Source: Bolinopsis microptera
Taxonomy: Eukaryota > Ctenophora > Tentaculata > Lobata > Bolinopsidae
DNA length: 64,000 nucleotides
Assembly: GCF_026151205.1 (NCBI RefSeq)
Contig: NC_087083.1
Location: 14,750,280 to 14,814,279, forward strand
Direction of reading: 5' to 3'
How positions within the stretch are numbered: position 1 is the first letter of the stretch; each line of letters starts with the position of its first letter. Shown one piece after another: positions 1,023-49,600 of the stretch. The notes below the pieces were generated by a model that saw only the letters and a program-made list of their open reading frames with translations, was not told where the DNA came from and did no database searches. The translations under genes and the position numbers were made by a program.

Positions 1023-1614
1023 AACACAACTAAACACCTGTAATCTATTAATAACCAGTACCTGCTAGTCTCCAGGTATCATCTAGAGGAGTGCCCTCTA
1101 CACTACCGCACAACTAAACACCTGTAATCTATTAATAACCAGTACCTGCTAGTCTCCAGGTATCATCTAGAGGAGTGCCCTCTACACTACCGCACAACTA
1201 AACACCTGTAATCTATTAATAACCAGTACCTGCTAGTCTCCAGGTATCATCTAGAGGAGTGCCCTCTACACTACCGCACAACTAAACACCTGTAATCTAT
1301 TAATAACCAGTACCTGCTAGTCTCCAGGTATCATCTAGAGGAGTGCCCTCTACACTACCGCACAACTAAACACCTGTAATCTATTAATAACCAGTACCTG
1401 CTAGTCTCCAGGTATCATCTAGAGGAGTGCCCTCTACACTACCGCACAACTAAACACCTGTAATCTATTAATAACCAGTACCTGCTAGTCTCCAGGTATC
1501 ATCTAGAGGAGTGCCCTCTACACTAGCGCACAACTAAACACCTGTAATCTATTAATAACCAGTACCTGCTAGTCTCCAGGTATCATCTAGAGGAGTGCCC
1601 TCTACACTAGCGCA
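1023..1614. repeat. 84-bp minisatellite, 7 copies, spanning a gene A exon end and donor
   Basis: Copies start at about 1025, 1109, 1193, 1277, 1361, 1445 and 1529, spaced exactly 84 bp and nearly identical. Read on the minus strand, each unit carries the last 47 nt of gene A exon 28 (ending ...GACTAGCAG) followed by its GTACTGG donor and 30-odd nt of intron. The copy at 1566-1614 is the one continuous with the rest of the exon. Confidence 0.9.
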
Positions 1615-4600
1615 CACGTCAGTCTCCACACACATAGCGTAGTGAAGATTTGGTGATCTGTTCAGATAGTAGATTTCCTTGTTAGCGCACTTCTTCATTG
1701 AGATTACTTGACAAGAACCTGAGGGAAGAGTGGTCAGGAGATCAGGGCCAGGTTTGCGCGCCGAGTTGGACTTGTCGGCGTCTTATATCTTTAAGTTGTA
1801 TGTGTTATTATATACACGGTCTTACAATATTTGACACAAATATCACCCGTTAATACTCATTGTTCACCCGTTAATACTCATTGTTCGTTAAATTTCCGGG
1901 CTTAGTTAGTTAGCTGGACAGTACGTGGCGTATACCTTACCAAGAGGGTCAACAGTTTATTTATTAAGGAACAAATAGTCTAACTACAAGTTAAGACAAT
2001 AGTTTGTAGCAGCTATAAGTTACAAAGGAACGGGCTGTTGTTCTATGTGGATGTTTGACTGTAACTAATGTAAGGAGGTGAAGGTATGTAAGGAGATGAA
2101 GGAATGTAAGGAGGTGAAGGAATGTAAGGAGGTGAAGGAATGTAAGGAGGTGATGTGAACACCAAGTTAACGTACTCTGGTCAGCTGTAGCGCTGGTCCT
2201 GTAGCAAACTTTACCAGGTACAATACCATCCTCTTCCTTGGGCTCGACAGAGTTTATGTAACCTGAGGGGGAGTTATCAGTAAAGTTAAAAGTTGTAGTC
2301 AACACAAGTTTGAAGTCGTTATCCACCGGTTTGGGCCAACATTTCACGTGCATAAATGAATACTGTAAATCATCGCATGTATTAATAAAAGCGCTGTAGC
2401 TTAAAATTTGTAGTTATAAAGAGTAAATAAGCTAAATATTGTAACCTGGGTAAGTAGCTCCACAATCGTACAGATCTGAGGGAGAGTAAGCAAGACGCTT
2501 GTTACCGACCTTCACCTCGTACCATCCGGAGGTCAGAGATTGCCATTCGTTCCCTGCAGTACAGATATACGTTTAATTTAATTGTAATTAATATTATTCG
2601 TTCCCTGCAGTGCAGATACGTTTAATTTAATTGTAATTAATTATTCGTTCCCTGCAGTGCAGATATACGTTTAATCTAATTGTAATTAATTATTTGTTTC
2701 TTAGAAAAACATCTTAGAAACACTCGTAATGTGTAGATAAGAGTGCTCTACTGACCAGTCCTTTCTCCAGCCCACTGCAGAGCGTTGGTGGAGTAGATAT
2801 TCTTTATTTCACTAGACGTGCACACATCCTCCTCTACGCAGTAAGCTAGTTGGTTATAGTTTATTTTGAACAGTCTGTATACCCAGTATCCCTGAGAAAG
2901 TGGTATTGTTAGCGCCCTGTCCGCTTTCACGGCAACTTCTCACATACCAGTAAAATGGAAATATCATAGTTAAAGGAAATGCTTTGGCTCCAGTTTACTC
3001 ACGTCACATTTAAGTGCTAAGTTCCTGTAGGTAGTGCCAGTAAATCCTGTTGTATGCATTCTCAGAGCGAACAGAGCGTCACCACTCTCCTCATCTTTCT
3101 CCAGAACCTGCATACCAGTCAGTGGTTACTAGTGGTTACCAGTCAGTGGTTACTAGTGGTTACCAATCAGTGGTTACTAGTGGTTACCAGTCAGTGGTTA
3201 CTAGTGATTACCAGTCAGTGGTTACTAGTGGTTACCAGTCAGTGGCTACTATAAGTGGTTACCAGTCAGGGGTTACTAGTGGTTACCAGTCAGTGGTTAC
3301 TAGTGGTTACCGGTCAGTGGTTACTAGTGGTTACCAGTCAGTGGTTACTAGTTTGTTAAGAACATATTAGATTATTAACAATCCATCCAAATATTTAATA
3401 CAGATCTTCAACCTAGTTGGTAATTACAATTTATATTTCCGCTACATAGATGAGCTGAAATTACTTACTACTACTACTACACGCTACTACTTACGTCACT
3501 GATAAGAACTTTGTATGTTCCACCACAATTGTTATCCTTGACTTGGAACGCAGTGAGACGACCCAATCCACTCATGAATCTGTAGTAACCATCTTCCACC
3601 ACCTAGGGTAAATCAGTGTTAATTTTTTTAATCAACACTTTCTGGATTACATAATTTTCCATTTTCTACATTGGTGAATTGGTGATAGACCTTCTATCAA
3701 GTACACAGTTGGTTTGTATTATTTTATATTTCAGAAGAGCTTAGTATATACTATATATATATATAGTAGTATATGTAGTATATATAGTATAGCGTAGTAA
3801 CTATGGTAACTAGTAGTGTAACTATGGTAACTAGTATAGCGTACCGTGAGCTGCTTAGTATATACTATATATATATAGTAGTATATGTAGTATATATAGT
3901 ATAGCGTAGTAACTATGGTAACTAGTAGTGTAACTATGGTAACTAGTATAGCGTACCGTGAGCTGATCGTTAACGTATGAAGTGGTAGGAGTTAGCATTC
4001 CTCTCTTGGGGTTGTTTAATTTGGTGGCTGCCTCGCATACCTCGGTCTTGTCTTGTTCTGTTCAAGTAGTTGTACATTAGATAACAAGATTTAATTTAGA
4101 AGCTAGAATAAGTAGCCTGGCCTGAAATCTGAATGAAATTCCTCTTCCAATAGTTGAGATATAAACATTTGTCCTTGTCTCTTTCAACCGGATATTATCC
4201 AACTATCAGTATTTCATCGTGAGACTAATAAACAGCGAACTACTCCAACATTTGATATTCCTAAATCCCGACCAGGAGATATAAACGACTGACTATTTGA
4301 AAGATAAGACCATTTGAAAGACTATTTGAAAGACTATTTGACTGACTATTTGAAAGACTGCACTTACCGACACAATGACCGTACTAAAGACTGCACTTAC
4401 CGACACAATGACCGTACTAAAGACTGCACTTACCGACACAATGACCGTACTAAAGACTGCACTTACCGACACAATGACCGTACTAAAGACTGCACTTACC
4501 GACACAATGACCGTACTAAAAACTGCACTTACCGACACAATGACCGTACTAAAGACTGCACTTACCGACACAATGACCGTACTAAAGACTGCACTTACCG

Positions 4601-7600
4601 ACACAATGACCGTACTAAAGACTGCACTTACCGACACAATGACCGTACTAAAGACTGCACTTACCGACACAATGACCGTACTAAAAACTGCACTTACCGA
4701 CACAATGACCGTACTAAAGACTGCACTTACCGACACAATGACCGTACTAAAGACTGCACTTACCGACACAATGACCGTACTAAAGACTGCACTTACCGAC
4801 ACAATGACCGTACTAAAGACTGCACTTACCGACACAATGACCGTACTAAAGACTGCACTTACCGACACAATGACCGTACTAAAGACTGCACTTACCGACA
4901 CAATGACCGTACTAAAGACTGCACTTACCGACACAATGACCGTACTAAAGACTGCACTTACCGACACAATGACCGTACTAAAGACTGCACTTACCGACAC
5001 AATGACCGTACTAAAGACTGCACTTACCGACACAATGACCGTACTAAAGACTGCACTTACCGACACAATGACCGTACTAAAGACTGCACTTACCGACACA
5101 ATGACTGTACTAAAGACTGCACTTACAGACACAATGACCGTACTAAAGACTGCACTTACCGACACAATGACCGTACTAAAGACTGCACTTACCGACACAA
5201 TGACCGTACTAAAGACTGCACTTACCGACACAATGACCGTACTAAAGACTGCACTTACCGACACAATGACCGTACTAAAGACTGCACTTACCGACACAAT
5301 GACCGTACTAAAGACTGCACTTACCGACACAATGACCGTACTAAAGACTGCACTTACCGACACAATGACCGTACTAAAGACTGCACTTACCGACACAATG
5401 ACCGTACTAAAGACTGCACTTACCGACACAATGACCGTACTAAAGACTGCACTTACCGACACAATGACCGTACTAAAGACTGCACTTACCGACACAATGA
5501 CCGTACTAAAGACTGCACTTATCGACACAATGACCGTACTAAAGACTGCACTTACCGACACAATGACCGTACTAAAGACTGCACTTACAGACACAATGAC
5601 CGTACTAAAGACTGCACTTACCGACACAATGACCGTACTAAAGACTGCACTTACCGACACAATGACCGTACTAAAGACTGCACTTACCGACACAATGACC
5701 GTACTAAAGACTGCACTTACCGACACAATGACCGTACTAAAGACTGCACTTACCGACACAATGACCGTACTAAAGACTGCACTTACCGACACAATGACCG
5801 TACTAAAGACTGCACTTACCGACACAATGACCGTACTAAAGACTGCACTTACCGACACAATGACCGTACTAAAGACTGCACTTACCGACACAATGACCGT
5901 ACTAAAGACTGCACTTACCGACACAATGACCGTACTAAAGCTTGCACTTACCGACACAATGACCGTACTAAAGACTGCACTTACCGACACAATGACCGTA
6001 CTAAAGACTGCACTTACCGACACAATGACCGTACTAAAGACTGCACTTACCGACACAATGACCGTACTGGTTGTTGGGAGGCGGTTTAACAATACCGTAC
6101 ACGTAGTACTTCCCACAGTTCTTCACAGAGATCTCGTTACTAGAGTGACAGTCGTTACCGTTATACTTCCAGCACACCTGCCACCAAGACACATGTTAGT
6201 TTAATCACATATCATTACTTTTACTTCAGTTATATAATTAATTAATTAATAATTAATTAATAAAATTACAAGGTTTATCAATTAATATTTGAGCACATTA
6301 AAGTGGGTAGATAACAAATTCTCCTACCTTCCTCTGTACAACCCCCTCGTTATCCCGGGGATGTTCCCCATCTATCCAACCCTGGTACTCAGTGGTACAC
6401 ATGTTAGTCACTGCTGGAGGTTCCTCCATCATCCTTCCTGTTCCTATTGTGTATCTTATCCAGCCGTTGAACAGATTGTCAAGGTTAACTGAGGAAGTAT
6501 TCTGTTGTTACTTATCAGGTTACGTGTGGGTTATTAAACATTTGTTAAACAAGTGCATCGGAAGAAATTGTCAGCATTTAAATGATAAAGTGGTTTTTCC
6601 CTTGAATTTGGTTCGAGGAGACCCTTAAAACCCTCACTCCAATATCCAAAACAATAAACTAAGCTGGCAACTCTGTGGCCTAACCCTAAGTGTCAAACTC
6701 ACATCTAGTGAAGCCAGTTCCGTATTTGTGGGAGTATTTTAGTCTCCGCACATCGTCCACCTCCTTGTACACGTTATCAGAGCATACGTCCGTATCCGCT
6801 ACGTAACAGTAGTCGTTTTGAATGGTCCTTGTTAGGAAGTACACGTATTTATCTCCACAGTTCTCTACCTCGATATTTTGCGTTTTATCAACACCAGGGA
6901 ATCTCATAACCCTTGTTACGGCTCCCTCACCCTCATTAGGATGAGAGTCTATGTAACCGTTATAATTACAACCTCCTACTGCTTTGGGAGGGGGTGACTC
7001 TGGGATCCTCTTCAGACCTTGGGTGAAGTAGACCCAGCCGTCGTTACCGAAATATCTACTCTCGTATCTTCCTGTCAGCATTTTCCTGGTGGAGTGGTAC
7101 ATCTTTCAAAATATAATGCGGGCTTTAATGATATCAAACCGTGAGTCAGCATGCTGGATCTAGTTATTAATATTAGAGTCATAGAGTGTTATATTAACAT
7201 GTAATCCCTACCTGCTGTTGACTCTCCAATCATCATTAATTTCTCTGGCGTTCTTACATCCAGGTGTCGCCTCGCAATACCTAACAAAGCAACAAGCAGG
7301 TTAAACAAGCGTTATCTAATTTATAACTACTTAATTTATTGTTATTTAATGTATAACTAGCAACTACTTGATTAACTATTATCTAGTTTATAACTACTTT
7401 ATTTATTGTTATCTAATTTATAACTACTTTATTTATTGTTATTTAATTTATAACTACTTGATTTACTGTTATCTATTAAGTGATATGAACCTGGTTGCAG
7501 CAGTAGGGGTATTCTTGAGACGGTACAGATAGAAGCCGTCACAGGCCTTTACCCAGTTCTTCACGTTGTAAGTTACCCCAGCATGGGTACTCATAAATTT

Positions 7601-10600
7601 CACATTGTTCTGTACAATCCCTTCTTCCCTGTAGATGATGTGGTTTAGTTGGGGAGCTAATAATTAATAGGCATCAGTAATCAGTTATAGGCATCAGTAA
7701 TCAGTCACTCCTCATTAGAGGTAGGGAGGTAGGCATCAGTAATCAGTCACTCCTCATTAGAGGTAGGGAGGTAGGCATCAGTAATCAGTCACTCCTCATT
7801 AGAGGTAGGGAGGTAGGCATCAGTAATCAGTCACTCCTCATTAGAGGTAGGGAGGTAGGCATCAGTAATCAGTCACTCCTCATTAGAGGTAGGGAGGTAG
7901 GCATCAGTAATCAGTCACTCCTCATTAGAGGTAGGGAGGTAGGCATCAGTAATCAGTCACTCCTCATTAGAGGTAGGGAGGTAGGCATCAGTAATCAGTC
8001 ACTCCTCATTAGAGGTAGGGAGGTAGGCATCAGTAATCAGTCACTCCTCATTAGAGGTAGGCAATTAGTTCCCGATTACTTTTTTGATGTGATAGAGAAT
8101 AAAGCAGCCTGACCAACTGTTTGACAATGATTAAGCTGTAAATAAACTTTAATTCTTCTTACTTTGTTGGATGAGGAAACTGTAGGTGGCCGTGGTAAGT
8201 GGTGGAACACTGTGTACCCACGAATGTAGAGGTTGGCATGTAGCCAAGGCCAGCTGTTAAACGGTACCATCCTTCAGCCAGAGTGTAGTCAGAGGTCCCT
8301 GTCGTGAAATGTGAGAATTTTAACATTGTTATTGTAACGTTATTGTACCGTTATTGTAACGTTATTGTAACGTCAGCTGTCTATGACAAAGGCGTGTTGC
8401 CGAAACGTCGACAACTAATTGTTTTGAATCACTGAGTGGAGACTCTCACTTCGTCACCAACTATCAAACTTTATCACAAGCCTATAGAATAGTAAAACAT
8501 TATAGCCGTGCAGTGTAACAGCAGACTTGTTAAAATAAGGTTCTTAGTAACGCACCCGTTGTGGTATCGGTAGATGAGACAAGTCGCTTTTCGTCGTCAC
8601 TTTCTGTGTATCTGCCGGCTTCACATACGCTCTCTTCATTGTCATCAACTACGAGACCAGTTCTACTATAACCAGTCGGCGGGATCCTGCAAGCATAAAT
8701 TAGCATAAATTAGCATAAATTAGCATAAATTACTTTTTTGTTTTACAAATTGCAAATAATTTGTAAAATTTGTCTGACGGTGTTACTCATTGTTTGTATG
8801 AGGAATTATGTAACAATATATTCTCATACTTGTAAATATAGTAACCACCGCAGTTCTTGATGGTAAGCTTCCATGTCCAGGCGATATACCGGTCAACGCC
8901 TCCTCTTATTCCGGTACCAGGACTTCTGTAGTGCTCCATAATCAGCTCCTCGCTTATATCCTGGTAGGAGTTACTGTTGGGACTGGTTTACTTTTTATTG
9001 GCTATTTTAGTTGTGTCCTGAGATTTCATAAAGAAAGTAGCAACGAGGTGAATGTACATCGAATGTATTAACACTACTAAACTGATCATACTTAGTACTT
9101 ATAAACATGCGATAAGTTAGAGTTATATTTTTAACATTTATTTATCTATGAGCTCACCCCAGGATTGGGAACTGAAGCATGAGAGCCCTCCTCGAACTGA
9201 TAAGGATACTGGAATCCTCCCCACCAATTTCCTTTTATCTTGGGGTACTCTGCGAGTCTACCATTACCGTTCATGAATCTGTACCTGTTAGTTACCATGG
9301 TTACCATTAGTTACTTAATCTGTACCTGGTTAGTAGATGCGTTACTTAATCTACCTGGTTAGTAGATGCGTTACTTAATCTACCTGGTTAGTAGATGCGT
9401 TACTTAATCTGTACCTGGTTAGTAGATGCGTTACTTAATCTGTACCTGGTTAGTAGATGCGTTACTTAATCTGTACCTGGTTAGTAGATGCGTTACTCAA
9501 TCTGTACCTGGTTAGTAGATGCGTTACTTAATCTACCTGGTTAGTAGATGTGTTACTTAATCTGTACCTGGTTAGTAGATGCGTTACTTAATCTGTACCT
9601 GGTTAGTAGATGCGTTACTTAATATGTACCTGGTTAGTAGATGCGTTACTTAATTTACCTGGTTAGTAGATGCGTTACTTAATCTGTACCTGGTTAGTAG
9701 ATGCGTTACTTAATCTACCTGGTTAGTAGATGCGTTACTTAATCTACCTGGTTAGTAGATGCGTTACTTAATCTACCTGGTTAGTAGATGCGTTACTTAA
9801 TCTGTACCTGGTTAGTAGATGCGTTACTTAATCTGTACCTGGTTAGTAGATGCGTTACTTAATCTGTACCTGGTTAGTAGATGCGTTATTTAATCTGTAC
9901 CTGGTTAGTAGATGCGTTACTTAAAGTCTTAGTGCTGAGTATATTGTTAGGATATTATAGAACTATGTTAAATATATATAAGTATTACAGTTGTGTAGCT
10001 ACTATTATTATGGAGAAGTTATTAATTGACCTACCATGCTGTGTACGTTTTGAAGAAATTCCTGTCGCTATTGGCGGGGAGGTTGAGTTCTGAAGGGTTA
10101 GAGTAGAGTCTGTTAGCCTGATCTACCTCCTGGTAGCTTCCCTGTTGGCACACGTTATCTGCGATCCTGAATGTTTGTTTAGTGATGCAACCCTTGTATG
10201 GCAATATGTAAGCCATTAATTAGCTCCCGCAAATATGATGGACATGTTTAGGACGTATGTTTAGAGCTTTTAGTGTATTTTCAAAAGCATTTTTATTGTA
10301 TTTGGCTTCATAAGATGAAATAAAAAGTGATAGTAATTAGTAGTAATAGTTATAGTATTACTTATAGTAGTATTTATATTAGTACTTATAGTAGAAGTAG
10401 AACTAACGCGTAGAAGTAGTTGTTGGAGTAAGGTCGGAGATAGTAGATATATTTAGATCCACAGTTCCTGATGTAAACTTTAGTGCTCGCTCCCTTGGTG
10501 TTCGCATCAGTCGTTGTGAACCACACTGTCCTCTCAACGATTCCTTCAGCCTCAGAAGGGTGCTCTCCCTCAATCCAGCCAGGGTGTTTGCCAGTTCCTC

Positions 10601-13600
10601 CGTGTTTATAGAGGGTTTTCTCTGTAGCTAGCTGCTTTTGTCCAATTGTTACCTCGTACCAACCAGCCGTCAGTGCTGCAGAGTTGGTGTCTTATTAAAG
10701 CGAACAAATGGAATGTGCGCGAGTCAAAACTTGTATGTTCCGTAAGCAATGTTCAGAGATTAGGAATAAAATTATTTTCAGATAAATTAGAGACTTACTA
10801 CTGTCGGTCATAGCAATAGCATCCAGGTTGTACTGAAGTCTCCACTCCTGATCCAGCTTGACGGTGTCCTTCTTACAGACGTCCTGCTCAAAGGTATAAC
10901 CATAGTTAGCAGCAGTCTGTTGTAGATGGTACACGTAGAAGTTCTTACAGTTTCTCACAGTCACAGGTCTGATATGATGTGGATAGCAGTGGTTACCGTT
11001 GACAGTGAAACAGGCTCTTCCGGTCTTTTCCTCGTCTTCTTCCAGAGGATATTCTCCATCATACCATCCAGGGTAGGTGATACCACTGTGTCCAGGCAGG
11101 ACAGGGGACCTAGCCATGATACCTTCATCCCGGGGGAATCTGTACCAGCCGTGCTCCAGAGTATTGTCACTGATCCTATCAGTACTGGGGCCCCTGGCAG
11201 CTCTAAAATCTTCCTCCAGCTTCTTATACACAGTGCTGGAGCAGGGATCCTGCTCTGCACAGAACACACGGTCACATCCCGAGGGTTTGGTCCACTTGTA
11301 GACGTAATCGTCTCCGTCATCTTTGTTACCACAGTTGAGGATGTGTCCAGTAAGAGAGTTGGCTTTGCAGTTGGTGGCTGAGGCGTAGTGGAATGTTCTA
11401 CCTACAATTCCCTCGCCTGGAACTGGGTGACCGAGATCCCCGACATAGTAACCTGTGTCTCCACCACATTTGTTGGGAGCCACACAGTGATCCGGCATCT
11501 TCTTCTCGTACACTTTCATACGGTACCAGCTCTCATAGTCATTGAGTCCCAGTGTGTCACAGTGGTCACGTGTCTGAGAGAGGTAAGTTTTAGCAGTGGT
11601 CACGTGTCTGAGAGAGGTAAGTTTTAGCAGTGGTCACGTGTCTGAGAGAGGTAAGTATTAGCAGTGGTCACGTGTCTGAGAGAGGTAAGTTTTAGCAGTG
11701 GTCACGTGTCTGAGAGAGGTAAGTTTTAGCAGTGGTCACGTGTCTGAGAGAGGTAAGTTTTAGCAGTGGTCACGTGTCTGAGAGAGGTAAGTTTTAGCAG
11801 TGGTCACGTGTCTGAGAGAGGTAAGTTTTAGCAGTGGTCACGTGTCTGAGAGAGGTAAGTTTTAGCAGTGGTCACGTGTCTGAGAGAGGTAAGTTTTAGC
11901 AGTGGTCACGTGTCTGAGAGAGGTAAGTTTTAGCAGTGGTCACGTGTCTGAGAGAGGTAAGTTTTAGCAGTGGTCACGTGTCTGAGAGAGGTAAGTTTTA
12001 GCAGTGGTCACGTGTCTGAGAGTGGTAAGTTTTAGCAGTGGTCACGTGTCTGAGAGAGGTAAGTTTTAGCAGTGGTCACGTGTCTGAGAGAGGTTAGTTT
12101 TAGCAGTGGTCACGTGTCTGAGAGAGGTAAGTTTTAGCAGTGGTCACGTGTCTGAGAGAGGTAAGTTTTAGCAGTGGTCACGTGTCTGAGAGAGGTAAGT
12201 TTTAGCAGTGGTCACGTGTCTGAGAGAGGTAAGTTTTAGCAGTGGTCACGTGTCTGAGAGAGGTAAGTTTTAGCAGTGGTCACGTGTCTGAGAGAGGTAA
12301 GTTTTAGCAGTGGTCACGTGTTTGAGAGAGGTAAGTTTTAGCAGTGGTCACGTGTCTGAGAGAGGTAAGTTTTAGCAGTGGTCACGTGTCTGAGAGAGGT
12401 AAGTTTTAGCAGTGGTCACGTGTCTGAGAGAGGTAAGTTTTAGCAGTGGTCGAGTGTCTGAGAGAGGTAAGTTTTAGCAGTGGTCACGTGTTTGAGAGAG
12501 GTAAGTTTTAGCAGTGGTCACGTGTCTGAGAGAGGTAAGTTGTAGCAGTGGTCACGTGTCTGAGAGAGGTAAGTTTTAGCAGTGGTCACGTGTCTGAGAG
12601 AGGTAAGTTTTAGCAGTGGTCACGTGTCTGAGAGAGGTAAGTTTTAGCAGTGGTCACGTGTCTGAGAGAGGTAAGTTTTAGCAGTGGTCACGTGTTTGAG
12701 AGAGGTAAGTTTTAGCAGTGGTCACGTGTCTGAGAGAGGTAAGTTTTAGCAGTGGTCACGTGTCTGAGAGAGGTAAGTTTTAGCATTCTATAGAGCTGGT
12801 TCAGGTATCATTTGTTGGTTTTTCTAAATAAAATTGATAAAACAAGCTGTCCGTTGTGACGATTTTATTTTAATAGTTACCTTCTCGATAGTTGTACCAC
12901 GCCATTCCTCAGCAAGGTCCACAGCATTCTCACATACATCGGAGAAGTCTTCCTCTATGCAATAACCAGCGTAATTTGTGGACTGTTAAAAGTCACTGTT
13001 AATAAGTTTACACATTATCAAGTTTACAAGCATGAATGAGTAAGTTAGTCTTTCTAGTATGTTTAACGAAAGGTTTGGGGGGAGGTTGGGGGCCGGGGGA
13101 AGGTGGGGGCCGGGGGAGGTGGGGGGAGGTTGGTGGCCGGGGGAAGGTGGGGGATGGGTGTAATTCAACATACCTTTTGAAATTTGTGGTAGTATTTTAA
13201 TCCACACTTGACGATATAGACTGGAGCAGATTGGGTGATGGCGCAGATGTTAGCGGCAGTAGCGGCAACATGCCCCATCGACATAGTTATTTTACCTTCT
13301 TCTGTCGGATACTCTCCTCCCAGCCACATTGGGTATCTGGTAAAACAAAAAAGAGGTTGAAGAAAGAGGTTGAATTTAAGTAATGCTGGAAGAGAGTCTG
13401 TATAAAATAAAGAGGTTGAATTTAAGTAATGCTGGAAGAGAGTCTGTATAAAATAAAGAGGTTGAATTTAAGTAATGCTGGAAGAGAGTCTGTATAAAAG
13501 AAAGAGGTTGAATTTAAGTAATGCTGGAAGAGAGTCTGTATAAAAGAAGTGTAGAACAGGAGACTCACCTAAAACCACAATGATGCAGCCCTGGGCAGCT

Positions 13601-18180: not shown

Positions 18181-18184
18181 TTGG

Positions 18185-19560: not shown

Positions 19561-19629
19561 TGTTGTTTCAAAATGTACGATATTGATATACGTCTTTTCC
19601 TAAAATGAAACATTAGAGTCACAAGTTAC

Positions 19630-20715
19630 TAAACGGACATTGCGTGAACGAACATTAAAATGAACGCTCGTAACACTTTCAACATGTGCAACTCCAATAT
19701 TCAATGTGTGACTTATGAACCGGTTGATTTATGTAATGTTAACAGGACCGAAAGAGTTCACGGTAATGTGGAGATACAGTAATACCTGCACATTGTCTAC
19801 TGGTGAGCATTACTCACAGGACCGTTATTTTACAGGACCGTTATTTTACAGGACCGTTACTTTACAGGACCGTTACTTTACAGGACCGTTATTTTACAGG
19901 ACCGTTATTTTACAGGACCGTTATTTTACAGGACCGTTATTTTACAGGACCGTTATTTTACAGGACCGTTACTTTACAGGACCGTTATTTTACAGGACCG
20001 TTATTTTACAAGACCGTTATTTTACAGGACCGTTATTTTACAGGACCGTTACTTTACAGGACCGTTATTTTACAGGACCGTTATTTTACAGGACCGTTAT
20101 TTTACAGGACCGTTATTTTACAGGACCGTTACTTTACAAGACCGTTATTTTACAGGACCGTTATTTTACAGGACCGTTACTTTATAGGACCGTTATTTTA
20201 CAGGACCGTTATTTTACAGGACCGTTATTTTACAGGACCGTTATTTTACAGGACCGTTACTTTACAGGACCGTTATTTTACAGGACCGTTATTTTACAGG
20301 ACCGTTATTTTACAGGACCGTTATTTTACAGGACCGTTATTTTACAGGACCGTTATTTTACAGGACCGTTATTTTACAGGACCGTTATTTTACAGGACCG
20401 TTATTTTACAGGACCGTTACTTTACAGGACCGTTATTTTACAGGACCGTTATTTTACAGGACCGTTATTTTACAGGACCGTTATTTTACAGGACCGTTAT
20501 TTTACAGGACCGTTATTTTACAGGACCGTTATTTTACAGGACCGTTATTTTACAGGACCGTTATTTTACAGGACCGTTATTTTACAGGACCGTTATTTTA
20601 CAGGACCGTTATTTTACAGGACCGTTATTTTACAGCACCGTTATTTTACAGGACCGTTATTTTACAGCACCGTTACTTTACCGGACATAATTTAAAACGG
20701 ACATTAAAAGTCCGT
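19630..20715. mobile_element. degraded CTTATCGGA-family MITE expanded by a minisatellite
   Basis: The left flank (ACGGACATTGCGTGAACG, ATTAAAATGAACGCTCG) and right flank (CGGACATAATTTAAAACGG, ACATTAAAAGTCCGTTC) carry the internal motifs of the MITE at 14216-14406. Between them sits the 16-bp array. The terminal CTTATCGGA itself is not clear here. Confidence 0.5.
19818..20690. repeat. 16-bp minisatellite, about 54 copies
   Basis: The unit is ACAGGACCGTTATTTT with a common TTACTTT variant and rare ACAAGACC or ACAGCACC forms. The unit resembles the GAACGGACAT motif of the surrounding MITE. Open frames of about 300 codons through it are artefacts. Confidence 0.95.
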
Positions 20716-30565: not shown

Positions 30566-30686
30566 GACGTTACAGGAACATTGCATACTCCTACGAGTTG
30601 CATGTAGCAGGCCATGACCGTCCCTGGAAGTCCCTGTCTCCTCATCGTTAACCCGTAAGGGGTTGCACCAGGGGCGGTGGTAACAG

Positions 30687-30809: not shown

Positions 30810-31713
30810 ATATTATAACTTGGGAGTCTCTCTCTCTAGCAGCAGGAGTTGGAGAATGGGGACGCGTTGTGAAAGCCACCGCAAGGAAGGCTTACAGTCG
30901 ACGCCGACCAATCAAAAGAAGAACCTACCAGGACGCGCGCCGAGTTGGAACAGATATTTTACGAGTATCACCCGTTAAAAATTTACCCGGTTAGCTGGTA
31001 TGTGGTTAGCTCCTCAGCTCTGATATCTGAGAAAGTGAAACGAATGCGCAAGGAGGGAATGGCGCGCCGGGTAAGACTGCTTAACTACTCTCTGCTACTA
31101 GAGTATAAGACTGAAAACAAGTCGCTGAGTGCTGACAAAGGACTGCAATGAGTCAAGCCTGACAAAATAAACGCTTAACCTATTGAATAAATGATCTAAA
31201 AACGTTCCGATTGAGTTACATAATTTGTAATCGTTGCTCAAAATGGCCAAAAACTACCGCAGTTTGTTTAAATCGATGCCACTCCTTGATAGAGGCCTTG
31301 CCAGTTTGTTTTACCGCTATTACTAACGTTTGCAATGCGGAGAAAGTAACAACACAACACACCACAGTGTCGCTCAATATGATAATCAAATATTAAAACC
31401 TGCTTTGCAAGCGAATAAAATAAAATATTTAAAGGGTTGCTCCCTATCTGAAAACATCTTAATATTCTCTTCTCGTAATTAAGTCAGTCACTTACTGAAT
31501 AACTCGATAATTAGATCATAAATTACGCTCATGAAAATATGGACTGAATAGGGAAATATTGCGCTCATAGCTCACTTTCTTTAAATTCTTCACACGATCG
31601 ACGACTGTTTCATGATATTATCTTAAAATCAATCGACTAAATAATAATTAATAAACATCTCTTAATTTCTGACGACCAAACGAAATATTCATTACACATT
31701 AACAGTCCCCTCT
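30810..31713. other. intergenic 3' flank of gene B
   Basis: Motifs near 30930-31005 are shared with gene A intron 27. Short plus-strand open frames (31000-31150) are basic but unrecognised. No clear minus-strand AATAAA was found for gene B. Confidence 0.4.
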
Positions 31714-37700: not shown

Positions 37701-40217
37701 AACAGTAATTAACAGTAATTAACAGTAACTAACAGTAATTAACAGTAACTAACAGTAACTAACAGTAACTAACAGTAATTAACAGTAACTAACAGTAACT
37801 AACAGTAATTAACAGTAATTAACAGTAACTAACAGTAACTAACAGTAATTAACAGTAACTAACAGTAATTAACAGTAACTAACAGTAACTAACAGTAACT
37901 AACAGTAATTAACAGTAATTAACAGTAATTAACAGTAATTGACAGTAACTAACAGTAACTAACTATAACAGTAACTAACAGTAACTAACAGTAACTAACA
38001 GTAATTAACAGTAATTAACAGTAACTAACAGTAATTAACAGTAATTAACAGTAATTAACAGTAATTAACAGTAATTAACAGTAACTAACAGTAATTAACA
38101 GTAACTAACAGTAATTAACAGTAACTAACAGTAATTAACAGTAATTAACAGTAACTAACAGTAACTAACAGTAACTAACAGTAAGTAACAGTAACTAACA
38201 GTAATTAACAGTAACCAACAGTAACTAACAGTAATTAACAGTAATTAACAGTAACTAGAAGTAACTAACAGTAACTAACAGTAATTAACAGTAATTAACA
38301 GTAATTAACAGTAACTAACAGTAATTAACAGTAACTAACAGTAACTAACAGTAATTAACAGTAACTAACAGTAACTAACAGTAACTAACAGTAATTAACA
38401 GTAATTAACAGTAACTAACAGTAACTAACAGTAATTAACAGTAACTAACAGTAACTAACAGTAACTAACAGTAACTAACAGTAACTAACAGTAACTAACA
38501 GTAATTAACAGTAACTAACAGTAATTAACAGTAATTAACAGTAAGTAACAGTAACTAACAGTAACTAACAGTAACTAACAGTAATTAACAGTAATTAACA
38601 GTAATTAACAGTAACTAACAGTAATTAACAGTAACTAACAGTAACTAACAGTAACTGACAGTAACTAACAGTAATTAACAGTAATTAACAGTAACTAACA
38701 GTAATTAACAGTAATTAACAGTAATTAACAGTAACTAACAGTAATTAACAGTAACTAACAGTAATCAATAGAAATAAACGTTCACTTGAGACCACCCAGA
38801 AGAAGTTAAACTAAGCCTACTGAAGAACTGTATCTATGTGATATTAGCAAACTTACCGGTCAGGTTAAACACGCTCTGATCGCTGATTTGTTTTTTTATG
38901 TTCTGGAACATTTCCAAGCACTTCTCGTTATCCATCACAACCGCTCCCCCTGCAAGACAATAGATTAACTTATAGTGAATTAATTATTGCACAACTTCTC
39001 GCTCCTTCACATTGATCATTACCTCATTATTGTGAATGGGTTTACAATTAATGATGAGGTCCTGAACACAATGGATATTACTACTACTACTAACACAATG
39101 GATATTGTTAACAATTAAAGGCGTGAAATTGGTACAACCGTTTAATACTGTAACAGCTTTATACTATAGTGCTAAGTGCAATTGAGGGTATTTCCATGGA
39201 AACGAATAATTCCTCCTACAAAGATGCCCATCTCGGATACTAAATAAACTCGTTATAAAGAGGGGGAGCAGTCACACAGCAGTCACACAGCAGTCACACA
39301 GCAGTCACACAGCAGTCACACAGCAGTCAAACAGCAGTCACACAGCAGTCACACAGCAGTCACACAGCAGTCACACAGCAGTCACACAGCAGTCACACAG
39401 CAGTCACACAGACGAGAATGATAGATTGAGTTTATCATTAAGGGGGGGGGGGGGTTCACCCTGATTTTTTTGTGAAACTTGGTTTCGAGATAGCAGTTGA
39501 CCAACAAACTAGAACCGGTGACCGAACTTTTGAGGGGGTCCCCGACCCCAACCGCCAAACGGTGCCCGCGGGGCAGCCACGCCCATATTTGGTTCAAATT
39601 AGGCCCAATTTAGCCAAATACCCTGAACATGCCCAAAATCCAGATTTAATGTGCTCTACTTGTAGCTAGTGGTCCCCTGAACAAGTATATGCATTTTCAT
39701 CAAGATTGGGCCAAAAATGACTGAGTTATGAGCCAAAAACCATATGACCATATTTGGGCATACGCACCAAATTTGATCGATTTTGGCCCATAAATTGGTC
39801 AAATATCAATATTTTTGAATGAAACCAACTTTATATGAAAGGTAAGTTTATACTACACATTCTCTATGATTGTCAGCTCAGTATCTACCTAACTGTGGAT
39901 TCTGTGTTCAAATAATTACAAAAAATGAACAAAATCGTACATATCTCAGTTCGCAATATTTGCAAAACTGATTTGAGCGAAATCAGTTTTGCAAATATCG
40001 CGTACTGAGATATGGACGATTTTGTTCATTTTTTGTGATTATTTGAACACAGAATCCACAGTTAGGTAGATACTGAGCTGATAATCACAGAGAATGTGTA
40101 GTATAAGCTCACCGTTTGGCGGTTGGGGTCGGGGACCCCCTCAAAATTTCGGTCACCGGTTCTAGTTTGTTGGTCAACTGCTATCTCGAAACCAAGTTTC
40201 ACAAAAAAATCAGGGTG

Positions 40218-40253
<36 letters not shown>

Positions 40254-43200
40254 TTAATACCATCAACTTACTAACAATCTTCAAGATGTTATACAATCAT
40301 TAAGTTTGGCAGTGTCTCAAGAGATATTCAGTTTACCAAGAATTAAGTAAAACATAATGGTAATCTTTATTCGCTCTTATGAGTGGGTCGATCATATATT
40401 TTGATGGTTTTAAACTAATTACAACACTACAAATCTTTGGGGGGGGGGGGCCAACCATATTAAAGTATATTAAAATGTAGGATTTTTCCCGATTTTGACC
40501 CGGGGATATACTTTAATATACTTTAATATACTTTAATATACTTTAATATATCCCTATCTCCTTGGAGGCCTACATCAAAAATTGTTGCCCAAAATAAGCT
40601 TGAAATGCAATTCTTAATCGATTCCAAAAAGTTCTTGAAAAAATATTGAAAACTGATGGAGTTATTTCAATTTTAATGAAGTCATTTTGGGTAGTATTCT
40701 GAACCGAGATATTATGTGCAATTTTCCCAATTTTGTTCATGGAGGTCTTTTTACATAGTATCCACTATATTCAACAAACACTGAGTTATATCTTTCACAT
40801 AGAGTTAGTCTCATTAAAAAATATTGAAATTTTATCGAATTTGGGCAAAAACGAATTTGGGCAAAAGCGTATGCCCAAATATGGGCATATTTTTTTAAGC
40901 TCATAGCTCAGCCAATTTTTGACCAATCTGGATGGAAATTCATGTGCTAGTCCTAAAACAGGCTTATCTTGCGAATCTGAGTGAAAAATATAGTTCATCA
41001 TGTAAATCTTAACGAAGAATATAAATCTTCTAATTGTAGGTATATTAAAGTATATTAAAATGTAGGATTTTTTCCGATTTTGACCCGGGGATATACTTTA
41101 ATATACTTTAATATGGTTGGCCCCCCCCCCCAATCTTTACATTTATTGAACTATGTAAGTTATTGTAACGTCCTGTCTATGACAAAGGCGTGTTGCCGAA
41201 ACGTCGACAACTAATTGTTTTGAAACACTGAGTGGAGACTCTCACTTCGTCACCAACTATGAAAAGATTAGGTAAAACGTTTGAGTATTATTGTACTGAA
41301 CCAGACTTATCTCCGACTAGAGTTGGGACAGTATCATAATTAATTAGTGTGGAATCAAAACACCCATTGTTAATACTTTAAGAGATTAATTAGCAACTGA
41401 TTATTATCTATTTCGATACCTTGAATTGACCTGAGTAATGTTCCATTGCTATATTGTATGATAGAAAATGAAGATAGATCATAGATAACAAGGACCCACA
41501 AGCTTAGATAACTTGAGATAGGAGAAACTCAAGCAGAGACCAATTAGCAACCAATTAGCAACCAATTAGCAAAAAATAGCCACGCCCAACATGAGTACAG
41601 TTAAGCTAATTGTCTACTGCAATGTATGTTTTTAATGCAAAACACCAATCAACTAATTACTGATAAATTATGTACTTTGCCAATGATCTCTTCCAATCAT
41701 AGCTTGTTTTATCTGCAGATCATTACCCTAACAACATAAGATACCAACTGATTAATTGTTGGATCTTTTAAGTTTCTTAAGTTTTTATGCAAATAATGGC
41801 CCATGTGCGGGCTCACGTGGCTCACGAAGCTAAATCAGTACTGCAAACAGATCTGGGAACATATTGGGGCACACTTTTATCAGTTTAAGCGAGCATGCCC
41901 GGGCACGTGGGAAGCAAGGGGGACCGTGTTACAGGCATCTCACAACTCTCGTTACTTTATACCGCTTGGTTCGAAACAGTCTCCTATTTGGAGTAGGCAT
42001 TATGAGGCGAGCTAATTTTCCATTGTCATTGTTTAGCGAGGTGTCTGTATTTATTATCCCATATATAATAACCGGTTACAGATTTACAGATTTAGCTTGC
42101 TTTTATTTAGGGGGACCTTTAAATACGGGGTTAAGTAAGAGAACTAAACAGTGTGGTACATAAGGGGTAGGTTACACCAGACAGAGCAGTACGTAGTTCA
42201 GAGTAACCAGTGTGGTACATGAGGGGTAGGTAACACCAGACAGAGCAGTACGTAGTTCAGAGAACTGTCTTAAGTAGCATTAGCTCGCACTGTTAAGGTG
42301 TACCCAGTCCGTAATCAGTAAAGTCACCTTGTTAAGGTGTACCCTGCGGTTGTGGCTGAACCACATAAGACTGTCTCAGTCCGTAATCAGTAAACTCATC
42401 TTGTTTAGGTGTATTCTGCAGTTGTGGCTGAACCGCATAAGACTGTCTCAGTCCGTAATCAGTAAACTCACCTTGTTTAGGTTTAGTCTGCGGTTGTGGT
42501 TGAACCGCATGAATCTGTCCCATTCCGTTGGGTGCGTTCGTGTATGCAGTGTTGCTCTGAACGGTAGATGCGGCCCCCGCGGTTACCTGAATGCAGTAGA
42601 AGGTTCAATTAGAACCGTGAAACAAATTGTAAAATAAACTGAGAAACATACTGTGGAGCAAACTGCGAAATAAAATGTTTGTAAACCGTGAAAAAAGAGA
42701 AACAAACATCACTATCAGTTTAATAAGGTACTAGTTTTTAAAATGTAAGTTTTCACCGCGCCAAGATAAAATTCACGCATCATTTTGCAGTTATGTTATT
42801 TAGTATTATAATTTAATTGAGGAACGTTTCATTAAATAAATAATTAATCACTAATCTGCTAATTACCTTGTTGGAAACCTGATTAACAGGGACAGCAGTG
42901 TAGTTAGGAGGTGGAGCGCCGCCCGACTGTGAGAAGTTGGGTATGAGAAGTCTGAGGAGTCTGATATTGTCGCTATCTAGAGACGTCACATCCTTCATCT
43001 GAGGGAAGTTAGAGGGTTTTAGAGCGTTTTTAGAGGGTGTCTACTAAGTGTTTAGGAGCTGAATAGAGGATTGTTAGAGGATCATTAAGATAAGTTAAGA
43101 AGAGTGTTTAGAGGTAATATCAGAGGTAATATTAGAGGTAATATTAGAGGTAATATTAGAGGTAATATTAGAGGTAATATTAGAGGTAATATTAGAGGTA

Positions 43201-46200
43201 ATATTAGAGGTAATATTAGAGGTAATATTAGAGGTAATATTAGAGGTAATATTAGAGGTAATATTAGAGATAATATTAGAGGTAATATTAGAGGTAATAT
43301 TAAAAATAATATTAGAGGTAATATTAGAGGTAATATTAGAGGTAATATTAGAGGTAATATTAGAGGTAATATTAGAGGTAATATTAGAGGTCATTGGTTA
43401 CTGGTGTGATATCATCAATGGTATTGTTCACTTCTAAAAGGATGATTTTCACGTTTAACTAAGATGGCATTTTAAGACATATTTCTGATAACATTAATTT
43501 AAAATCTTATATTTTATCCAGTTTTAGGAGAGACTGTTAAGCTGACTTCGATAGTGGTTTTTCTAACAACCTCTATAGTCTATAGGTAGTTTTGAGATGT
43601 ATAGCTCAAACTTCAATACTCAAACTTCAATCTCCAATACTTATACTAAAGGATGTTTTACAAAATAAACCGCGCAACTGACTAGCACTAAGTTTACTCA
43701 TGGCTGATCAGATAAGGAACACTTTTCAGGTGGGAATAGAATTTGTAAAGCGAAATAGAAAGTAAAAGAGAAAGTAAAAGAGAAAGTAAAAGAGAAAGTG
43801 AATGAAGCCACTGACCCTCCAAAGTCTCAAGCCGAGAAAATGAACTCCTCTACTCAAGGACCGGCCCACTCGGAACTGATGACTTAAAACTACACACATC
43901 ACCCCGATAATATCAGAAATAACCAACTACAAAACTGTGAAACTGAGGAACATGTGGCTACTAGTGGGGAGCATGCACAAACAGCTTATTGCAACTATTG
44001 TCGCGCCACTCGGCTCACGCTAATGAGCAATTGAGCGGGCCTACCCTGCACGTGAAAACATCACAAACTACACGTGCTCTGGAATGAATAAAATGTGAGG
44101 GAATGTGACTAAGAATTAGAGGGAGGAGCCTGTGTGGAGGAGCAGGGGGCTGGAGAGGACACGTGACAGAGACCACTCTCAGGACAACCCTGTAAAACTC
44201 TCCGGAGAGGAGGGCAGTGGAGTGTGAAGTAGATCTTCACGTGGGAATGTTCCAGAATGATCACCTCCAGGCTGTCCAGTGTAGTGGGGTAGTGGGGTAC
44301 AATTACAGGACCAGAGGACCAGTAGTAGAGGTGTCGTGTTTCAATATCAGGTGCCAGGATACCAGGGGGGGGGGTCAGGTGCGCGGCTCTTCTGGGCACG
44401 TGATATTTACACTTCGGTAGTAGGAGTTCCCAGGAGAAAATAGCAATCACAACACAGCTCTTCTGGTTTGTAACGTGAGGGAATGCCAGGTGTTGCCGCA
44501 CGAAGTTAAGATAAGATTTAAATCCAGATATGATACAGGTCAGGTTAGTTAGAGCGCAAGTCACGTGACTTCACATGACCTTCAGTAACTATCAAACAGA
44601 CTAAGATGAATTTTCATAACCACTAGTGGCGGCTAAATTGATCATGATGTTTCTTGAGATAGAGCCAGTCTGTCGGATTAATATTTCTAGTGTATGTTGA
44701 TTAATATTGCTGATTAGATAGTCTTTGTTCGGATCTATGAACTAGACGGGTTTTCGAATATCAAAAGAAGCTGCGTCAAACTTGTCTAGCTCATAGTTTT
44801 AATAAAACCTATCTGAACAATACTTACAAGAAAAACCTATCAAATCTGAACAATATTTACGAGAAAAATCTATGAAAAAGGAAAAGAGATTTAATCTTGT
44901 TTATGAGAACATAATATGACGTAACACATGTACTCCCACGCAGTGGATTGGTAAACCAAAAGAGTATGTGCAAATAAAGTACCAACCATACTTCATAGAC
45001 ATCATATACATTATACAGTATACACCCATTTAACATGAAATAACGTCTAACAAGTACCATCTACAACGGGAAAACATGAAAATAACGCTGACATTACAAA
45101 AAGGTTCCTTGAAATATCAGTTCAAACCAAAGTGGTAGGATGTGTAAGATTAGAGAGCATGGTAGGATATCGGATATGGTAGGATTATGGATTCACGAAG
45201 GATAATTAGTGGTTGATGTTATCTTATTGCATTGTTCTTTATAATTCGGTTTATTACGTCTACAATGAAAACAATTTCTCGGATTGCCATTTCGATCGTT
45301 TTGTTCGTTTAGGTGAAATTATTTTGATTTGATATACAATCATGTGTCTAATAGTGACATTAACAAGGTTACGGGTATATGTGAGGCATATACCCGTATC
45401 TCTATCAAATCTAATGAAGGAATTTTAAATTTGGTGAACATAATAAACATGAATATTTAAATTTTGACTTACAATAAGTTTTCATTCCAAAAATAGCGGT
45501 GACTTATATTAAGAGTTTTATGAAAATGTTTGCATTTAATCATCACCAATATTGCACTAAATTTGTATGTCTTTCAACATAAATTCAAAGAATGAAAATA
45601 CTGAGTAGGCTTAGAGTGAGTGTGAAATGTGGTAATACTGAATAGCTTTAGAGTAAGTGTAGTAAGTATAGAGTAAGTGTGAAATGTAGCTGTAAGTATA
45701 GAGTAAGTGTGAAATGTAGCTGTAAGTATAGAGTAAGTGTGAAATGTAGCTGTAAGTATAGAGTAAGTGTGAAATGTAGCTGTAAGTATAGAGTAAGTGT
45801 GAAATGTAGCTGTAAGTATAGAGTAAGTGTGAAATGTAGCTGTAAGTGCCGAGTATAAGTAAGTGTGTACCTGTAAGCCGGTTTTGGGAGAGGGCTCCAG
45901 TCTGACAGCTGGAATGGGGCTGATATAGGGGGAGTTAGTGAGAGTAGTGACTGCTGCAGGTTGTTGATGTGATACTGACACAGCCCCCTGTCGTTAACAT
46001 GGTTAATATCGTGCACTCAGACAACATCAATATTAGTAAGAGAACTATCTGAATATTTGAGTGTTACCTAGTTAGAAACATTGAGAAACTGAACAATAAC
46101 ATAGTACATGTTACACCATAGTACACCAACGGACTTATAAAATAAAAGGGACTAGCTACCTTGATCCTATCTATGAGACGTTGCTGAAGGAGTTGTTTCT

Positions 46201-46339
46201 GAGCCTCTGAGCTGGCCTCTGAGCTGGTAGTAATAGTCTGAGAGGAGGTCACTGATCCTCCTCCATTAGAGTTAGGTTGTAACAGTGAGGCCAGGGGGAA
46301 GGGGTTTACATTGGGACACTGTTCGTTGGGCTGCTGAAA

Positions 46340-46394
<55 letters not shown>

Positions 46395-46410
46395 ATTAGT
46401 TGGTTAGTTG

Positions 46411-46470
<60 letters not shown>

Positions 46471-46486
46471 ATTAGTTGGTTAGTTG

Positions 46487-46518
<32 letters not shown>

Positions 46519-46519
46519 T

Positions 46520-46608
<89 letters not shown>

Positions 46609-49600
46609 CAGTTAGTTAGTCAACTTTATCTCTTTCCGTGTCGAACTTTCTTCGGCTTTTTGTAAAGCTGCCGTTTAGGCTCATTATCTTACTATATTTG
46701 AAGCGAGACGATATATATCTGTGCCATTTTACTGACACCACGGCATCAACTTTGAAGCGACTTTCTGCAAAAACCGTAAAAGATATACAACTGAAACTTT
46801 TTTGGCTGGGTAAAATGCTTTAATGGCCTCCAAATCAGCATGAAAAAATAAAAAATTGGCCAAGGAATAATGATTTTAGAGCTGAAAATTTGGACCCCCA
46901 AGTGGTGTCAAAAACGCGAATTAAATAGGTAATAATTATTTTAGTCTCTACTCTCTTGAGTCTTGACACCATTTTAGGGTTATACGGGGTCCTGCTAGTA
47001 TAATATAATGATTATATAAGTAAATAATAATCAATAAATGTAAGATAAAGTGCGGCTCTACCTGCTAGTATAATATAATGATTATATAAGTAAATAATAA
47101 TCAATAAATGTAAGATAAAGTGCGGCTCTACCTGCTGGTATAATATAATCATTATATAAGTAAATAATAATGAATGTAAGATAAAGTGCGGCTCTACCTG
47201 CTAGTATAATATAATCATTATATAAGTAAATAATAATGAATGAATGTAAGATAAAGTGTGGCTCTACCTGCTAGTATAATATAATCATTATATAAGTAAA
47301 TAATAATGAATGTAAGATAAAGTGCGGCTCTACCTGCTAGTATAATATAATCATTATATAAGTAAATAATAATGAATGAATGTAAGATAAAGTGCGGCTC
47401 TACCTGCTAGTATAATATAATCATTATATAATGAATGTAAGATAAAGTGCGGCTCTACCTGCTAGTATAATATAATCATTATATAAGTAAATAATAATCA
47501 ATGTAAGATAAAGTGCTACCTTGTTCTCAGAGAACAGTTTCTCTAGTAGTTCCAGCTGATCAGCAGCCTTGTTGTCGAGTGCAGCTACAGCGGGGGTGGC
47601 GGGGGTCGTGTGTTGCGACGTTATTATCTCCCCCTACAAAGGAAGCAGCGCTCAGCAATAATCGGACAGAGTCACGTGGTTTATTGAAATTATCAGGCGC
47701 TTAATCGTTGAGTATGCAGAGGAAAATGGTTTATTTTATAGAAGGTGGCAAAAAGTTGTTCAATCTAACAATAATAATAGACATGTAAACATTTGGTTTA
47801 TTCTGGACATCAAGGTTGTAGGACTAATAGCAAACAGCCTAAAAAATAACTCACAAACAAAATCTACCAGCGTTACACGTGCAGCGCTTATAGCAGTTTA
47901 TAACACGTGCACTGTGCAACGCTTATAGCAGTTTATAACACGTGCACTGTGCAGCGCTTATAGCAGTTTATAACGAGGTTTATCACAACTTGTAAGTTTT
48001 GTCTTTCGGGCATTTTCCACCGGTTCAACTCGTTTTAAATTACTGGTTTGGTTGTTTATAGTTGGGTTATTTATACAGCATAACTTACCTCTATAGCGCG
48101 CCTCTGCTGTTTTAGATGGTTTATCTGCTTTATCAAACTCGCAAGAGGGTCGTTAGGATCTACTGTCTCATTTTCGTCCTGAACAGTAAATAATACGTTA
48201 CTTTCAAGTTTCGTGAGAGAAGGAAGGAACTGCTATATTAAACAAAATTAATGTACATAATATCATAATCCCCATAATTTCAAGTCTTTCAAGTTTTGGG
48301 GGCTATTTTCTTTAATTTATGGTCCTTTTTTTTATTTGTTTATTTAAAAAAAATTTATATCATGGTCCCTTATTTCGTTTAATAAGAAACAAGGAATTGT
48401 AAGAATGTGGACTATAAAACTAGCCAACCTGAAGCGTAGTGACAGTAGCAGGCTGTTCGTTTGCTTGTAGGAACTGTTTGTAGTCCTCCACCTCCTTCAC
48501 TCCTACACCACTCTTCAATTCACTCTGACACAAAGAGAAAGTCATACATTGCAACAGAGGGGAGGTAATAGTGAAACACTGTGCTCCCACCAATGATACA
48601 CTTGCCCTAGGGTCTCGAATCAATCTAAAATTAATAGTGTAGGATCGTGCAGAATATGTCACTGGAACCTCACAATATAAACAGTTAATGACAAGTAACA
48701 ATACCATTATTTTCTTGAGAGAAGGAGTGTCGCTAAGAGAGGGGGCAGAGTTAGAACCAGTCCCGGCCTGATCTGGTGTCGTCTTTATACCTGTAAAATT
48801 GTTAGTTAGCAGTCGGTAGTTAGCAGGTGGTAGCTAGCAGTCAGTAATAGGCAGGTGGTCTTTCAATACACTTGGCTACTGGCTAGGTTAACCATACTTT
48901 AATGCGGTCATTACTTTTTGTTTTTCGATATATCACTGCCACATGTAACCTTATCTACACAAATATCTACACACTTCAAATGTTTGGATTTCTACCGCCT
49001 TGAGTATATAAACTATAAAGATTATTATTGATCTGTAATTGAAAATAAACAGGAGAGGAGAAATGAGAAAATTAATTAATATAATTTTGATTAATATAAT
49101 TTTGATTAATATAATTTTGATTAATATAATTTTGATTAATATAATTTTGATTAATATAATTTTGATTATTGATTCTTTAGTGTAGATTAATTTTATTTTT
49201 ATATTTAGTATGAGCGATCAATCATAATATTTATTGATAATGTTTCAATGTATGATTATTGCATGAGATTGTACTGAAGTGACTACTATACTACTACTAT
49301 ACTACTACTATAATGTATGATTATTGCATGAGATTGTACTGAAGTGACTACTATACTACTACTATACTACTACTATAATGTATGATTATTGCATGAGATT
49401 GTACTGAAGTGACTACTATACTACTACTATACTACTACTATAATGTATGATTATTGCATGAGATTGTACTGAAGTGACTACTAGACGAAAAGAAAGGAAC
49501 CTGCAGGAAGTGAGAAAGGTGAGCAGCAAGTATCGAGGAGGATGGTATTAAAGCTGACAGTAACAGAGCAGTGGTCTATTCTATTCCTGTGTTTAGTTCT

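Follow-up and report, generated by a model that had tools for sequence, protein, structure and literature searches.

Does tandem duplication seek out splice junctions, or do duplications placed at random in short introns copy splice junctions often enough by themselves? The question is raised by a 64,000-nucleotide stretch of the genome of the ctenophore Bolinopsis microptera (NC_087083.1; C12:14750280-14814279 of the 264.65-Mb genome; hereafter the window). The window carries two multi-exon genes, A and B, both on the minus strand, and several of their introns hold minisatellites whose repeat unit includes a splice site of the host gene. We consider it likely that roughly uniform tandem duplications, combined with tolerance, explain these junction arrays, and that no targeting is needed.

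Tandem arrays were found with Tandem Repeats Finder (TRF) and their positions were set against curated exons. Gene models were obtained with a self-trained gene finder, for which the arrays were collapsed before prediction, and by reading by hand. Gene A has 35 curated exons, GT..AG at every junction and a 1732-aa open frame: exons 1-28 lie at 1566..17712 (minus strand) and exons 29-35 continue below base 1 in the neighbouring stretch L026. Its product contains repeated D8C/uromodulin-like domains (Pfam PF23283, D8C_UMOD, in both pieces scanned) and is predicted to be a secreted D8C/uromodulin-like repeat protein. For gene B, 19 exons were read (31715..49608, minus strand), all GT..AG, with a 951-aa open frame; a 515-aa query from this gene was 83% identical to the Mnemiopsis leidyi protein ACHWQZ_G000738 over 97% of the query, which places the species among the ctenophores, near Mnemiopsis. 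Unselected comparison sequence was taken from C1 (200 kb), C5 (40 kb) and C8 (40 kb), 280 kb in total. A search for mitochondrial COX1 gave no match.

An array was classed as spanning when its unit reached at least 3 nt into the exon. Ten such arrays were found in genes A and B: seven in gene A (six in the window and one in L026) and three in gene B. With three further arrays from the unselected sequence, the total was 13 in four genes (8 donor, 5 acceptor; 2/13 assigned by eye), with unit lengths of 30-112 bp.

All window arrays described here are on the minus strand. The donor arrays of gene A were as follows: an 84-bp unit in 7.0 copies at exon 28 (1025..1616, 51 exon nt), a 112-bp duplication (2.0 copies) at exon 22 (3739..3965, 9 exon nt), a 33-bp unit in 52 copies at exon 21 (4353..6068, 18 exon nt) and, just outside the window, a 53-bp unit in 65 copies (L026 2194-5640). 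Acceptor arrays were found at exon 26 (49-bp or 49/50-bp unit, 3.1 copies, 2545..2698, 9 exon nt), exon 13 (31-bp unit, 20 copies, 9276..9924, 9 exon nt) and exon 10 (34-bp unit, 36 copies, 11560..12785, 14 exon nt). The exon 13 array was assigned by eye: its TRF span (9310-9924) ends 25 nt short of the acceptor, the final copy has diverged, and 9276-9310 was read by eye. One further candidate at 13360-13548, which the gene finder presented as acceptor-spanning, was rejected as intronic (a relative's protein, P0001, is contiguous at 7|8).

In gene B, for which the exon numbers of arrays follow the first-pass annotation (its exon 6 is exon 5 of the curated model), donor arrays were found at exon 16 (36-bp unit, 23 copies, 33302..34125, 21 exon nt), exon 10 (72-bp unit, 3.1 copies, 42305..42528, 42-57 exon nt) and exon 8 (30-bp unit, 6.2 copies, 45662..45877, about 7 exon nt by eye). 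The first-pass annotation had listed weaker cases at exons 6 and 8. The exon 8 case stands, as a degenerate array in which it is the degenerate first copy that reaches the donor; the 70-bp array beside the donor of exon 6 (46991..47503) overlaps that exon by only 2-3 nt and was left uncounted. The other boundary arrays named in that annotation for the two genes were recovered where they had been placed.

Two of the three arrays of the unselected sequence lie in EDC4 (PF21289), one a donor array with a 30-bp unit and the other an acceptor array with a 46-bp unit; the third, at an acceptor of a gelsolin gene (PF00626), is degenerate. The EDC4 domain match at residues 181-280 takes in the acceptor-array junction, and the donor-array junction is a gene-model prediction. 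In the gelsolin gene, a PF25480 match at 201-285 takes in the array junction, which was itself set by hand; predicted exons inside the gelsolin arrays were taken out as spurious. Purely intronic arrays are exemplified by a 42-bp unit in 8.9 copies (7688..8061), one of 76 intronic among 89 arrays. Unit length was divisible by 3 in 6/13 spanning and 30/76 intronic arrays, which gives no signal. Array length modulo unit length was 0-4 nt in seven of the 13 spanning arrays, as expected from seeds with little or no microhomology, and 6-32 nt in the other six, four of which have indels, diverged copies or a near-complete last copy.

The splice sites of gene A are backed by an intronless copy. Two array junctions, used as queries against the genome, led to a second locus on C9, L031 (C9:5202601-5208000, 5.4 kb), which extends from the interior of exon 8 to beyond exon 35 with 1799 open codons and encodes a protein 80% identical to that of gene A over 1473 aligned columns. 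L031 spans 27 gene A junctions, 26 of them gap-free within 6 residues, and all seven array-bearing junctions, 28|29 included, are contiguous in it. It is a retrocopy that records the spliced gene A mRNA, though probably from before the present arrays. Because L031 differs from gene A at 155/474 four-fold sites and at only 347/2946 first and second codon positions, it is old and has evolved under constraint, and its sequence suggests a functional retrogene derived from a very large gene with many exons. It works as a natural complementary DNA that supports the gene A splice sites without annotation. The relative's protein P0001, from one 3116-bp contig, adds contiguity at 9|10, and P0002 adds it at 21|22. 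P0001 departs from the gene A frame past residue ~723, just after the 12|13 junction (TAWYR), in what looks like a one-base deletion in the relative's contig.

The Mnemiopsis protein is contiguous at all three array junctions of gene B: NQAAKK|PKL at exon 16, KPKQ|GG at exon 10 and KTGLQ|MKDV at exon 8. The expected junctions are present in both L031 and the Mnemiopsis protein, and neither contains array-derived residues, though both may predate the arrays. Parts of the gene B model are called into question by the same protein, which lacks exon 1, exon 5, the first part of exon 3 and three residues ahead of the 8|9 seam (curated numbering). Curated exon 5 (47520-47633; exon 6 of the first-pass annotation) is open and fits the frame, yet is missing from the Mnemiopsis protein: it may be skipped, species-specific or wrongly called. 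By hand, a predicted gene B exon (44391-44163) was dropped and exon 8 was trimmed.

The frequency of junction arrays was compared with uniform placement as follows: each array was reduced to one unit (u), which gave the ancestral intron length (L), and the chance of a seed reaching at least 3 nt into the exon at either end was calculated as 2(u-3)/(L+u-1). Three nulls were used, with seeds placed in the same intron, in the same gene or in all introns pooled; expectations and P values are given below in that order. The count set comprised 91 arrays in 140 introns of 10 genes. Units shorter than 10 bp or longer than 200 bp were excluded (including a 358-bp C1 array with a predicted acceptor overlap), as were arrays that are exonic or intergenic, those in gene predictions of low score, those at 49.6-62 kb of the window (beyond curated gene B), a reverse-transcriptase gene, an array at a stop codon, and the second EDC4 copy, which is dependent on the first.

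Over the ten genes, 13/91 arrays span a junction, and 12.0/10.3/9.2 were expected (P = 0.42/0.22/0.12). The first-pass annotation had judged such overlaps a rare outcome of random placement; that premise fails for introns as short as these, for which the nulls predict 9-12 such arrays. Under uniform placement junction arrays are expected often, because ancestral introns are short and units long: ancestral introns have a median of 164 bp (gene A) or 188 bp (gene B), and 26/34 and 12/18 introns, respectively, fall within 100-310 bp. With introns mostly of this length, and with units of 30-112 bp in the spanning arrays, roughly one in seven arrays takes in a junction. A strict count without the two by-eye arrays (gene A exon 13 and gene B exon 8) gave 11/91, and limiting gene B to Mnemiopsis-supported exons gave 13/88 overall (11.4/9.8/8.7 expected, P = 0.33/0.17/0.08). 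In the unselected genes of C1, C5 and C8, 3/41 arrays span a junction (3.7/4.3/4.3 expected); C8 contributed two countable arrays only, both intronic. The 95% interval of the observed/expected ratio under the same-gene null was 0.67-2.16.

The positions of the arrays relative to the junctions also agreed with uniform placement. The exonic share of the unit (e/u) is uniform among the spanning arrays (n=13, mean 0.48, Kolmogorov-Smirnov p = 0.88). Arrays that stop 0-10 nt from a splice site had also been taken as non-random, and 5/76 intronic arrays have an edge in that interval where 5.6 were expected, so there is no edge clustering. In EDC4 (C5 sample), a 29-bp array lies across the stop codon, which is a boundary under constraint but has no splice site, and this is what tolerance predicts.

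For the arrays, junctions and counts observed, we propose a mutational process of the following kind. In this ctenophore's genes, short tandem duplications would arise at near-uniform positions, and the seeds would then grow into arrays through slippage or unequal exchange. Seeds confined to an intron should be harmless. A seed that straddles a junction should be harmless as well, because one working junction would survive on the side of the array that faces the exon, in the first copy for a donor and in the last for an acceptor. The exon-facing copy would be used because the exon that it delimits is the shortest (exon definition), and the further splice sites in the array would be bystander decoys. 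The counts match uniform placement, and the suggestion made at first pass, that a duplication taking in the junction survives because a good site is left, fits these results.

The decoys were analysed in 13 array instances (11 from the counted set of 13 and two from the second EDC4 copy). GT or AG is kept in 264/279 inner copies. With all instances pooled, the decoys are treated like other bases: 16/558 dinucleotide bases are off consensus against 227/8210 elsewhere (p = 0.89). The exonic parts of the inner copies had fewer mismatches than the intronic parts (137/6730 vs 128/3595, p = 6e-6, pooled); better conservation of exonic sequence is not claimed from this difference, which owes much to the poorly aligned 31-bp array.

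Several results weigh against uniform placement with tolerance. In genes A and B, 10/50 arrays span a junction (8.3/6.0/4.8 expected, P = 0.29/0.063/0.016), an excess under the pooled null, and with gene B limited to Mnemiopsis-supported exons the count was 10/47 (7.7/5.5/4.4 expected, P = 0.20/0.036/0.008). Among arrays with units of at least 20 bp, 13/46 are spanning (9.9/8.2/7.4 expected, P = 0.15/0.050/0.022). When at least 3 copies were also required, a subset chosen post hoc, 12/29 are spanning (7.3/5.6/4.8 expected, P = 0.026/0.004/0.001), or 10/29 after removal of the two degenerate arrays assigned by eye (P = 0.15/0.034/0.013); nine of these 12 spanning arrays sit in genes A and B, the genes that prompted the claim. 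Copy number is higher in spanning than in intronic arrays (median 7.0 vs 3.15, Mann-Whitney p = 0.004, post hoc), and with stratification by gene the excess persisted among arrays whose units are 20 bp or longer (13/46 spanning, P = 0.018, post hoc). Finally, two arrays have lost decoy dinucleotides more often than other bases: 58/64 are kept in the 53-bp array (4.7% hit vs 1.1% of other bases) and 32/35 in the 34-bp array (4.3% vs 0.65%). This loss would fit mild selection against decoys, with too few independent events for decay to be claimed.

One alternative keeps the seeds uniform and has junction-containing arrays expand further or persist longer, with expansion promoted by the splice sites or by the machinery that transcribes and splices them; the copy numbers given above are of the kind that it predicts, and we regard it as rather unlikely.

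It is also unlikely, in our assessment, that tandem duplication or expansion is promoted at the junctions themselves, through breaks, R-loops or slippage at AG/GT-rich motifs. The excess in the long multi-copy subset (12/29), the pooled-null excess in genes A and B and the higher copy number of junction arrays speak for such promotion; the overall excess lacks significance, the unselected genes fall below expectation, the exonic share is uniform and array edges do not cluster. A three-fold targeting of junctions would very probably have been detected (power 0.95; 0.63 for two-fold), and 13 or fewer junction arrays arose in ~0.1% of simulations under three-fold and in 5.9% under two-fold targeting. 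The preference of breaks or replication slips for junctions, put forward in the first-pass annotation, is needless on these grounds.

A functional role, in which the extra splice sites tune splicing or make longer isoforms, was judged very unlikely. In its favour are the intact state of most decoys and the open reading of some arrays: past the first donor, the frame stays open in the two EDC4 units translated, in nine units of the second EDC4 copy and in one unit each of gene B exons 16 and 10. The EDC4 30-bp donor array (C5 sample 5002-7099 and 35668-35937) has no in-frame stops where translated (WVSQYNTGKY), so that use of an inner donor would add 10 protein residues per copy. Against this role, all four donor arrays of gene A that were translated have a stop inside the first unit, and the four translated acceptor arrays acquire stops when one more unit is included ahead of the acceptor (the exon 26 offset is not at AG and gives no fair test). 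The decoys are also conserved no better than other bases, and the L031 and Mnemiopsis proteins are without array-derived residues, with the qualification on their age made above.

That the arrays derive from introner-like mobile elements that brought their own splice sites is scarcely credible: dispersed elements with internal arrays do occur in the window and in C1, but the units hold host exon sequence, and the three of 13 arrays searched in the genome gave no sign of the same insert at many unrelated introns. In those searches, which skip very common words, the 84-bp array matched only itself, and the junction regions of the 33-bp and 34-bp arrays each found only their own array and L031, except for four weak C8 hits with the 34-bp query. 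These four matches (74-78%; C8:5972992-5973280) overlap in the fashion of a tandem array and may belong to another relative of gene A.

The window is repeat-rich even by the standard of its own genome, because tandem repeats cover 38.8% of it and 8.8%, 9.5% and 23.7% of the C1, C5 and C8 samples, respectively. A dispersed repeat with an internal 43/85-bp minisatellite lies beside a reverse-transcriptase-like frame (28804-29876 and 29914-30471), and translated repeats resembling it are also present in the C1 sample. Dispersed sequence rich in GTCCGTTCA was seen by eye at ~14220-14390, 19600-19700, 20690-20710, 26180-26230 and 27060-27130, and adjoins several arrays, intronic or intergenic, with 16-bp and 25-bp units; it may be a small mobile element from which arrays are seeded. 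An inverted repeat around ATAGATATCGACAACAGACTCCGAGAGTCTTGAAGTT was noted by eye at ~30700-30830.

Copy turnover is fast. C5 carries two inverted EDC4 copies (~3.3-7.5 kb and 35.3-37.6 kb of the 40-kb sample, L022-L025), with identities of 98.8, 96.9 and 98.5% for three pieces of the gene and of 93.0 and 96.3% for two more distant pieces. The 30-bp array has 69 units in one of these paralogues and 9 in the other.

The closest known system is that of the amphioxus 'mirages', minisatellite-like tandem duplications of exon-intron boundaries described in the Adh3 and globin genes (PMC3087553) and also in TnC and PGBD5, of which the PGBD5 duplications were termed imperfect (PMC3902484). Splicing was reported to be unaffected (PMC3087553, PMC3902484), and BflGb6 has 6 and 3 units in two haplotypes (PMC3087553). 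As in the mirages, the units span 5' or 3' boundaries, AG/GT is repeated many times and copy number varies; the ctenophore arrays have boundary-spanning units, include both boundary types and keep most AG/GT dinucleotides. Unlike the mirages, they reach 69 copies, occur several per gene, and come with a placement null that gives no clear junction preference. Copy-number instability in amphioxus is between alleles or cells, and here the difference is between EDC4 paralogues.

Tandem duplications that include splice signals also alter gene structure in cases of intron gain: through tandem duplication or repeat expansion in Cryptococcus (PMC2395259) and in the potato RdRp gene (PMC4974935), and through internal tandem repeats at exon-intron boundaries in human (PMC2812944). 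In those systems new introns appear, whereas here existing introns lengthen. In gene A no new intron was found at an array: the array junctions are the seams seen in L031, with no residues added or lost. For gene B, continuity rests on the Mnemiopsis protein, which gives no intron positions. The junction arrays share the unit-length range and the intron setting of ordinary intronic minisatellites, and their overall rate is that predicted by uniform placement; they differ in that the unit includes exon sequence and a splice site, and in their higher copy number (post hoc). The first-pass description of a distinct mode of intron growth was too strong: these behave as ordinary intronic minisatellites with a junction-overlapping seed, of a kind already described as amphioxus mirages. 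The Hormiphora genome report gives TRF repeats as 13%, and the part of it available does not mention exon-intron boundaries (PMC8527503). No ctenophore boundary minisatellite was found in the literature searched, which was mostly without subscription papers.

The ctenophore arrays extend the amphioxus mirages to comb jellies, and the null test removes the need for junction targeting. A striking pattern can appear without a special mechanism: random tandem duplication in short introns often copies splice junctions. Extrapolation from three independent arrays in the 280 kb of unselected sequence suggests, very roughly, 600-8,000 junction arrays per genome, and such arrays are a natural test set for how the spliceosome chooses among tens of identical sites.

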